Shown here: in pieces, positions 56,531 to 58,162 of the stretch
How the letters are laid out: every line of letters begins with the position of its first letter
Position numbering within the stretch: position 1 is the stretch's first letter
Assembly (NCBI RefSeq): GCF_000688255.1
Contig: NZ_JHYS01000001.1
Span: 186,001-250,000 of the forward strand
From: Simplicispira psychrophila DSM 11588
Lineage (GTDB): Bacteria > Pseudomonadota > Gammaproteobacteria > Burkholderiales > Burkholderiaceae_C
Direction: 5' to 3'
DNA: 64,000 bases
Program-made: the position numbers and the translations under genes
Notes under the pieces: model-generated
What the model saw: only the letters and a program-made list of their open reading frames with translations
Database searches by the model: none
Told to the model about the DNA's origin: nothing

Positions 56531-58162
56531 CTGTCCCGTGCGCAGGCGCTCTAGCAGTCCGGCGGTGGCGCCATCCAACCCGGTACGATCACCGCTGGCC
56601 AGGCGCGGTTCGATGTCGGTGGCCAATTGCTTGCCCAGTTCTACGCCCCACTGGTCGAAGCTGTTGATGCCCCAGATGGAGCCGGCGACAAACACGCGGT
56701 GCTCGTACAGCGCAATCAGCGCGCCCAGCGACGCCGGGTCCAATTGCTCCAGCAACAACACGCTGCTGGGCCGGTTGCCACTGAAATGGCGGTGGCCGCA
56801 GGCGCTGTCTCGCCCCAGCATCAGCGCCTGCGCCTGCGCCAGCGCGTTAGCGACCAGACGCGGGTGTTGCCCGGGCAGGTCGCGCCCACCGCAGCGCAGC
56901 ACGATGAATTCGACTGGAATCACATCCAGCCCCTGGTGGATCATTTGGAAAAAGGCGTGCTGGCCGTTGGTGCCCGGCTCGCCCCAGACCACCGGCGAGG
57001 TGGCGTAAGGCAGCGTGCGGCCTTGCCAATCCACACCCTTGCCGTTGCTCTCCATCTCCAGTTGCTGCAAATACGCCGACAGGCGCCGCAACCCATGGCT
57101 GTAGGGCGCAATGCAGCGGCTGGTAAAGCCGTGGAAGTTGCGGTACCAGACGTCCAGCAGACCCAAACGCACTGGCAGATTGCGCTCTAGCGGTGCGTTG
57201 AAAAAATGTCCGTCCATGGCGTGCGCGCCGGCCAGCAATTCTTTGAAGGCAGCAGCGCCAACGGCAATGGCAATTGGCAGACCAATCGCCGACCACAGTG
57301 AAAAACGCCCGCCCACCCAGTCCCAAAAACCAAAAGTGGTGCGGATACCAAAGGCAGCGGCCGCCTCGATATGGGTGGTGAGCGCAGCAAAGTGGCGTGC
57401 CAGTGGCAACGGCGCATCTACATCAGCACTCCCGCCGTGCGCCAGAAACCAGTCGCGCGCAGCATGGGCATTGACCATGGTCTCGGCGGTAGTGAAGGTT
57501 TTCGAGGCGATCAAAAACAGCGTGCTTTCCGGCCGCAACTGGCGCAACAGGCTACCCAACTCCATGCCATCGACATTGGAAACAAAGTGCACGCGCTGGC
57601 CGTCTTGCCAGCGGTCTTGCAGCGCGGTCACCACCATCGCCGGCCCCAGGCCCGAGCCGCCAATGCCGATGCTGACGATGTCGGTGATGGCCGCATCACT
57701 GCGCACGCTGTCCGCGTAGCGGAGCATGGCGTGCAGTGTGGTCTGCACATCGCGCTCGGCATTTGCTATTAAATCAGTAGCTTGTAGCGCTTTATCTACA
57801 TGGGCTACAGGCTTATTTCTTAATAAATGGTGCAGTACTGCGCGTTGTTCGGTGTGGTTGATGGGCGCACCGGCCAGCATGGCGTCACGGTGTGTTTCCA
57901 GGCCACATTCGCGTGCCAGCGCCAGCAACAGCGTCTCGGTCGGCACATCGATGCGGTTGCGCGACAAATCGGCAAACACATGCGGCGCTTCTTGGCTGAA
58001 GGCGGCGTAGCGGCCCGCGTCGGCAGCAAAAGCGGCGCGCACATCGAAGTGGCGACCAGCGCTGTCAAAGTGCGCGCGCAGCGCAGCCCAGGCGCACGTG
58101 TGGTCACAGCGCACACGCGGGTCTGGGAGAGCCTCAAGAACGTCTGGCGCAGGCGGCTGCAT
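56528..58162 (-). CDS. pgi: Glucose-6-phosphate isomerase
   Basis: 544 residues. Interconverts glucose 6-phosphate and fructose 6-phosphate. Signatures are GIGGSGLGPAMV (166-177), the ASKTFTTAETMVNA block, VGGRFSLWSAIGLPIA and WGEPGTNGQHAFFQMIHQG. Residues about 114-133 (within KPVAHVDKALQATDLIANA) are encoded by a copy of the dispersed repeat inserted in frame, in the region before the first signature where family members vary. The protein otherwise looks intact. The ATG follows the tal stop with no gap. Confidence 0.96.
   Translation of the reverse strand: MQPPAPDVLEALPDPRVRCDHTCAWAALRAHFDSAGRHFDVRAAFAADAGRYAAFSQEAPHVFADLSRNRIDVPTETLLLALARECGLETHRDAMLAGAPINHTEQRAVLHHLLRNKPVAHVDKALQATDLIANAERDVQTTLHAMLRYADSVRSDAAITDIVSIGIGGSGLGPAMVVTALQDRWQDGQRVHFVSNVDGMELGSLLRQLRPESTLFLIASKTFTTAETMVNAHAARDWFLAHGGSADVDAPLPLARHFAALTTHIEAAAAFGIRTTFGFWDWVGGRFSLWSAIGLPIAIAVGAAAFKELLAGAHAMDGHFFNAPLERNLPVRLGLLDVWYRNFHGFTSRCIAPYSHGLRRLSAYLQQLEMESNGKGVDWQGRTLPYATSPVVWGEPGTNGQHAFFQMIHQGLDVIPVEFIVLRCGGRDLPGQHPRLVANALAQAQALMLGRDSACGHRHFSGNRPSSVLLLEQLDPASLGALIALYEHRVFVAGSIWGINSFDQWGVELGKQLATDIEPRLASGDRTGLDGATAGLLERLRTGQ
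57764..57822 (+). repeat. Dispersed repeat copy R8 inside the pgi coding region
   Basis: Plus-strand copy: TGCTATTAAATCAGTAGC, TTGTAGCGCTTTATCTACAT, GGGCTACAGGCTTATTTCTT. It lies antisense within pgi and is translated in frame there. Its middle and end modules match R3 closely, so it is a real member of the family. Confidence 0.75.

Follow-up and report, generated by a model that had tools for sequence, protein, structure and literature searches.

The gene for glucose-6-phosphate isomerase (pgi) lies on the minus strand of the analyzed window, a stretch of 64,000 nucleotides from the genome of Simplicispira psychrophila DSM 11588, and its reading frame runs through one copy of a repeat family that is dispersed genome-wide. 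The window holds nine copies of this family scoring above 37 bits, among which the pgi copy ranks fourth. The features are as follows.

56528..58162, minus strand: pgi, glucose-6-phosphate isomerase, open reading frame of 544 amino acids, residues 114-134 from the element; NCBIfam NF001211 682 bits, Pfam PF00342 539 bits
57763..57822, plus strand: repeat element, model positions 1-60, antisense to pgi and in frame; covariance model R2 60.7 bits, E 3e-11; nhmmer 46.9 bits
57767..57788, plus strand: left arm of an imperfect inverted repeat (arms 22 nt, 73% complementary, spacing 15 nt)
57804..57825, plus strand: right arm of the same imperfect inverted repeat
2210..2269, minus strand: family copy between two same-strand genes, 63.2 bits
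15323..15382, minus strand: family copy between convergent ORFs, 61.5 bits
22352..22411, plus strand: family copy between two same-strand genes, 56.9 bits
27433..27492, minus strand: family copy just ahead of a plus-strand ORF, 59.5 bits
29919..29978, minus strand: family copy between two same-strand genes, 64.1 bits
40230..40289, minus strand: weaker intergenic family copy, 41.1 bits
45827..45884, minus strand: weaker intergenic family copy, 37.4 bits
61674..61733, minus strand: family copy between convergent ORFs, 51.8 bits

A first-pass annotation had proposed that two repeat modules of 20 nucleotides lie within pgi on the opposite strand, in a frame that stays open, and had placed the repeat at 57764..57822, at about residues 114-133. 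Both modules were recovered as exact matches on the plus strand (57782-57801 and 57802-57821), where none is expected and none occurred in 100 shuffles, and they are portions of one single element. The pgi frame is uninterrupted across all 544 amino acids, and its NCBIfam score of 682 bits compares with a cut-off of 492 bits. The peptide string had been given correctly (residues 114-134, LRNKPVAHVDKALQATDLIAN), but the element begins one base earlier than proposed, and the family consensus extends about 6 bp beyond 57822.

The covariance model used for scoring, R2, was trained on 34 other copies from the same genome, with the pgi copy excluded; its structure was written by hand from the consensus and replaced that of the automatic RNAalifold model (R1), which held just two pairs. 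R2 matched the pgi copy end to end. With 80 candidates scored per genome and E ≤1e-4, it found zero matches in nine of nine order-level genomes and in two members of the own genus; the match in pgi is therefore not a composition effect. Iterated nhmmer over genome loci recovered the same family, which a find-repeats scan of the window failed to pick up because the copies are too diverged.

The family is an AT-rich imperfect palindrome of about 60-66 bp. Its consensus, derived from 137 ungapped copies, reads tTaCTATTaAaTTAATAGCT..TAGCGCtTgt....aAAGgGCTAGAGGCt.ATTTGACt and is followed by about six weaker AT-rich positions; past these, the flanks of the same copies contain almost no information. 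There are two loop types, GCGCTT...AAGCGC and one with GCGCACGTATCTAAAGGGC. The information in R2 amounts to about 50 bits, or 0.83 per position over 60 positions. Within the genome, copies are on average 64% identical to one another and 80% identical to their nearest neighbor. The letters of the motif, and not base pairing, are what is conserved: 1602 of 2055 cells were paired, compared with 1606 in shuffles, and covariation beyond shuffles was found neither in 34 nor in 137 copies. A hairpin as a conserved trait was rejected for the tested copies, in which pairing is no commoner than in shuffles. No Rfam family matched in the window at its gathering score, and neither a GTAG nor a CGTC terminal tag is present at the ends of the consensus. 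With regard to MITE features, the pgi copy has one imperfect inverted repeat.

Scoring in the genome covered 150 of 1799 first-look candidates, giving a family of at least 150 copies with at least 14 in coding sequence. Of the 136 scored copies outside reading frames, 61 are flanked by same-strand genes, 28 by convergent genes and 2 by divergent genes, and 45 lack a clear coding signal on at least one side; the copies therefore tend toward gene ends, as other extragenic palindromes do. The junction occupied at 61674-61733 is also occupied in another genus, between the same convergent genes (L494:5289-5340), and elsewhere around pgi the positions of extragenic copies vary among relatives. The closest pair of all copies compared, 95% identical and 789 bp apart on contig C4 of the genome (162445-162504 and 163234-163293), is probably a local duplication.

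Fourteen of the 150 scored copies have a frame that is open through the element and coding-like codon use on both sides, by a self-set threshold (log-odds above 0.15 per codon over 20 to 80 codons on each side). Among the window copies scored in the genome search, the pgi copy alone passed this test, the others being intergenic or at ORF edges. The pgi segment is a true family member in an intact open frame, one of at least 14 coding copies. Random insertion into a genome that is mostly coding would place far more than 14 of 150 copies inside genes, and the copies found there would represent a tolerated remainder. An NCBIfam match crosses the element in 12 of the 14 genes (thiL, moeA, pgi, ygiQ, dapF, miaA, uvrD, selO, hsdR, truB, hscA and aroE); the other two, a gene resembling a type III restriction subunit and an FAD-oxidase/Fe-S fusion, have partial family matches beside the element. 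The element is read in the sense direction in eight genes (five in phase 1, three in phase 0) and antisense in six (five in phase 1, one in phase 2), and at least four of its six frames are in use, in both orientations. In moeA, about 30 residues at the element (316-347) have no match in chain 1fc5, and the 301 positions of the N-terminal Pfam domain of YgiQ are stretched over 406 residues.

An AlphaFold2 model of Pgi, built with 44 sequences, had a mean pLDDT of 87.1. The residues encoded by the element form a loop and the first turn of a helix spanning residues 130-155, and they are the least certain internal stretch of the model, with residues 121-125 below 50. An exposed loop or helix had been anticipated for this segment; the loop and helix start are found in the model, and the exposure would be a further prediction from it. 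The fold is ordinary, being that of solved PGIs by structure comparison. As the PGI family models match over nearly the whole length of the protein, Pgi with its element is predicted to be probably active.

Orthologues were gathered for five of the genes (pgi, dapF, truB, miaA and thiL), and in all five the relatives have element DNA at the identical site, on the same strand and in the same frame. Within the genus, a match at the expected position and strand was found in 16 of 24 dapF loci, 19 of 22 truB loci (two of which are from one genome) and 23 of 26 thiL loci, own loci included, with scores spanning 3.9-48.8 bits. Of the 23 miaA loci in the genus (two being pieces of one gene), 21 were matched, with two below 4 bits, one of these on the wrong strand. 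The pgi element reaches at least 28 bits in seven of 26 genus genomes. The nearest named Pgi, that of Simplicispira metamorpha DSM 1837 (L065), is 85% identical and has an element of 30.0 bits, and decayed pgi elements are found in other Comamonadaceae, including a Polaromonas (L078, 17.5 bits) and a Rhodoferax MAG (L067, 27.1 bits); scores in other genera run low because the models were built from copies of the own genome. The sequences are related, so counts across relatives are not independent, and some of the relatives are incomplete (G012 61%, G013 64% and G024 67% complete). Read as a recent event or as one specific to pgi, the proposed insertion could not be upheld: the site is common to these genomes and decayed in other genera, and pgi is one coding copy of many.

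The genus genomes without the element in all five genes are three in number (G001, G015 and G022), and the same three are poor in the family genome-wide, with 0, 0 and 3 copies compared with 48 to at least 80 in the other 23. These counts come from at most 80 scored candidates per genome, under filters stricter than those of the own-genome search, and the genome-wide family search did not look at the five genes. Fourteen genomes of the wider family had zero matches; the pgi block could be scored in 12 of these, and none reached 20 bits. Two pgi blocks, those of G080 and G274, scored 16.1 and 18.9 bits despite zero family matches. Much longer, AT-rich pgi loops of 53-58 aa with element-like letters (5.5-18.9 bits) were seen in G080, G274 and G198 (L185, L190 and L220), which may carry a diverged subfamily. 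The converse relation fails, as there are family-rich genomes without the element in pgi or dapF. G131, G295 and G228 each have at least 80 family copies, yet their pgi is without the element; five family-rich genomes have a dapF without the element and with a block of equal length; and the other family-rich genus genomes have a pgi of a different lineage, with a block that is nearly always 39 aa long and without the element.

The nearest orthologous copy was closer to the own copy than was the best of 149 other own-genome copies in all five genes. The margin was clear in dapF, truB and miaA, smaller in thiL (0.82 versus 0.77) and marginal in pgi (0.73 versus 0.70), orthologue closeness being taken from the highest-scoring ungapped match at any point of the retrieved locus. 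Most pgi and thiL orthologues were no closer than the best paralogue, which was exceeded by two of seven in pgi and two of 25 in thiL. A FastTree phylogeny was built from 143 Pgi proteins with the element columns removed. It leaves out loci below 56% identity to the own Pgi, together with seven named loci that are partial or of other Pgi lineages. On this tree, the label ‘element’ (at least 10 bits, 30 rows) is scattered on the Comamonadaceae side, with 16 changes compared with 27.5 in shuffles. The pattern is compatible with one old gain and many losses, and gain and loss are not separable on it. The own genome also contains a second Pgi-like gene outside the window (G000:C10:60266-61777), 49% identical.

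The length of the loop at the element was compared between conserved flanks. The outgroup comprised 11 pgi loci without the element; those named are Mitsuaria, Rhizobacter, Paucibacter, Roseateles, Aquabacterium and an unplaced Burkholderiaceae MAG. Roseateles and Aquabacterium belong to the Sphaerotilaceae, and Simplicispira and Polaromonas to the Comamonadaceae. The pgi block measures 30-31 aa in the outgroup and 35-59 aa, with a median of 42, in the 16 loci with an element of at least 20 bits (one gene fetched twice). In 22 loci of 5-20 bits the median is 45 aa, and in 94 Comamonadaceae loci below 5 bits it is 39 aa, with a range of 31-49 that overlaps the element-bearing one. The net gain in pgi over the outgroup is about 12-16 residues, less than the 20 codons of the element, and against the solved structure 3hjb it is zero. 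The dapF block is 44 aa long in 12 of 16 order-level genomes versus 55 in the own genome, a gain of about 11, and the thiL block is 47-48 aa long in 12 of 15 versus 55, a gain of 7-8, with a shift of a residue or two possible in these pairwise alignments. In the wider family, 13 genomes with few or no repeats had mixed lengths (dapF 50-60, thiL 47-55). Against solved structures, aroE gains about 11 residues (3pgj), truB 4 (1r3f) and miaA 4 (2zm5); another MiaA chain, 3crm, is however 7 residues longer than the own protein. In the miaA of one genus member (G014, L395/L396), a run of HT and NS dipeptides stands in frame just before the element, and the block is 70 aa long versus 44.

The element often accompanies a longer loop, but rarely one longer by 20 whole codons. 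The net gains are smaller than a simple insertion of 60 bp would give, so that such an insertion is not established; insertion followed by trimming is the reading preferred here. The first-pass annotation had proposed that the element was inserted into pgi. A family repeat does stand in frame in an intact gene, with a block longer than that of the outgroup, but the 94 signal-free Comamonadaceae loci overlap it in length. The same annotation had named orthologues of equal length in genomes without the repeat family as the mark of a chance resemblance. This check came out half against the annotation: such equal lengths were found in the repeat-poor genus genomes (truB in three of three, miaA in two of three, thiL in three of three), and one genome with no family match (G093, L165) has a pgi block of 42 aa at 1.7 bits; the equal-length blocks without the element may be eroded descendants of blocks that had it.

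Codon use in the element was compared with that in its flanks in family-rich sets of orthologues (pgi 7, dapF 20, truB 18, miaA 17 and thiL 22, plus the own genome). The pgi set consisted of the seven orthologues of the own lineage (L030-L036), for which identity, not element score, was the criterion of choice. The rich set also includes the five element-free dapF genomes, and some rich genomes had no orthologue for a given gene. The values for third-position GC (GC3), and the number of codon windows outside the element with a GC3 as low, were as follows.

pgi: family-rich element.33, flank.80; outside windows as low 0/483; family-poor element.69, flank.69
dapF: family-rich element.43, flank.81; outside windows as low 0/298; family-poor element.79, flank.66
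truB: family-rich element.36, flank.79; outside windows as low 0/264; family-poor element.66, flank.68
miaA: family-rich element.37, flank.82; outside windows as low 0/325; family-poor element.48, flank.64
thiL: family-rich element.30, flank.83; outside windows as low 2/365; family-poor element.65, flank.66

The gap between element and flank is gone in the three family-poor genomes, except partly in miaA. Summed over the five genes, isoleucine is encoded by ATA in 83 of 146 element codons versus 50 of 1127 flank codons. Synonymous identity to the own genome lies at 0.68-0.77 within the element, compared with 0.57-0.64 in flanking sequence; it is the extreme of the gene only for truB and thiL, being equaled by 39 of 483 outside windows in pgi, 46 of 285 in dapF and 55 of 325 in miaA. 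Genus genomes that have retained the family have also retained the AT-rich synonymous codons, and in the three others few or none of these codons are left. Together, the codon pattern, the lack of an excess of pairing and the closeness of orthologues point to vertical copies with letters that are still read. Gene conversion between copies is not favored as the keeper of the sequence, and it is least firmly set aside for pgi.

On balance, the pgi segment is probably an old coding copy of a Comamonadaceae repeat family that has been vertically inherited and is held at the DNA level by a genome-wide agent. In an ancestor of the Comamonadaceae, the element would have entered variable protein loops that tolerate about 20 extra residues in a stop-free frame. 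Neighboring residues would have been trimmed afterwards, so that net growth would be below the length of the element, and the copies would have been passed down vertically since. The peptides are predicted from the model to be flexible surface loops without a catalytic role. A putative sequence-specific factor or process acting on copies genome-wide would hold the nucleotide sequence; in a lineage that loses it, the copies would erode and the length of the translated peptide would often stay. A more specific version, which we offer tentatively, is that the element may be a mark of about 60 bp read by a putative genome-wide Comamonadaceae factor. Across divergence at the level of the genus, such a factor would keep rare AT-rich codons (ATA, TTA) in place in the core genes of GC-rich genomes, in any frame and on either strand, and the marks would decay jointly once it was lost. 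If so, a demand at the DNA level would shape protein loops.

The main rival to vertical inheritance of an inserted element is conversion in place, by which a DNA motif, propagated by drive or selection in the manner of uptake sequences, would have overwritten permissive coding stretches with few codons gained or lost. The equal block lengths with and without the element in truB, thiL and the five dapF genomes of the genus agree with this, as do the small or zero net gains against solved structures, the conservation of letters without pairing, and the fact that all five sites are empty together where the family is absent. We nevertheless hold it to be unlikely: most outgroups have shorter pgi, dapF and thiL loops than the family does, moeA and ygiQ have extra stretches at the element, and some 50 bits is much to evolve by point mutation at many sites. 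It is also rather improbable that recurrent independent insertion into the same hot spots, or gene conversion of them, keeps the copies fresh-looking in each lineage. Such recurrence would fit the scatter of the label over the Pgi tree with its 16 changes, the small margin by which the nearest orthologue of the pgi copy surpasses its best paralogue in closeness, and the differing positions of extragenic copies around pgi. It is at odds with the fact that, throughout the genus, five unrelated genes have the element at an identical position, on the same strand and in the same frame, and with the nearest orthologue beating the best paralogue in each of the five.

Recent mobilization of an active element into the pgi of this genome is very improbable. 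The pgi copy does rank in the better third of the scored family (41 of 150), but the sharing of its site with relatives largely refutes this reading, and the own-genome copies are as diverged as described above. Nor was the claim of mobility sustained as far as the present is concerned: the genomes compared yielded no empty site with a freshly filled counterpart, and the copies average 64% identity. Equally hard to credit is that ordinary coding sequence resembles the family by chance, or that a run of AT-rich codons is kept for translational pausing, even though slower translation at rare codons would be conceivable in the variable loop that the segment occupies. The score of 60.7 bits came from a model trained without the pgi copy, the copies are found in 14 genes in both orientations and four frames, and genomes without the repeat family also lack the AT-rich codons. 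Chance resemblance itself is refuted by this score, by the exact 20-mers and by the zero matches of the model in the order-level genomes.

DNA uptake motifs are about 10-12 bp long. The best-known cases of palindromic repeats that lie in frame within conserved genes come from Rickettsia and Wolbachia, which have reduced intracellular genomes, with weak selection as a possible reason. At least 14 in-frame repeats in a Comamonadaceae genome of 3.6 Mb, common to species in the five examined genes, extend the persistence of such repeats beyond those two genera. The 23 family-rich and three family-poor genomes of one genus provide a natural contrast between tolerated junk and sites that are still read, and the synonymous codon pattern appears to favor the latter. 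Among the matches listed from the openly licensed literature, there was no earlier description of this family or of coding repeats in Comamonadaceae, which is weak evidence of absence.

The closest precedent is the RPE of Rickettsia, also found in Wolbachia, which in the available part of its description is likewise a short palindrome present both between genes and in frame in conserved genes (PMC2229807). In the same part, RPEs are reported in 19 reading frames, and the product of an RPE-bearing gmk is translated and active, with a changed substrate affinity (PMC2229807); in-frame palindromic repeats of Rickettsia are also mentioned in the available part of PMC3733652. As described there, RPEs are 105-146 bp long with terminal inverted repeats, which sets them apart from the present family of about 60-66 bp in Comamonadaceae, and that description does not include the family-dependent maintenance at the DNA level seen here (PMC2229807). 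By analogy, the present family would work like the RPEs, with which no kinship is claimed, and adds to them the maintenance pattern. The GTAG/CGTC REPs, as far as the available text describes them, are also short palindromes that are mostly intergenic with some inside genes, but they are 20-40 bp long with a terminal tag (PMC3733652) that is absent here; the main text of that source has no mention of Polaromonas, Acidovorax, Comamonas or Variovorax. Uptake sequences of Pasteurellaceae and Neisseria resemble the present family in being a dispersed motif in hundreds to thousands of copies, also in genes, according to the accessible portion of PMC2346458. VeiPR1 is a comparably abundant palindrome that makes up about 2.3% of the genome of Verminephrobacter eiseniae, a relative of Acidovorax; the available part of its report calls it unique to V. 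eiseniae (PMC3975124), and its comparison with the present family is by description only.
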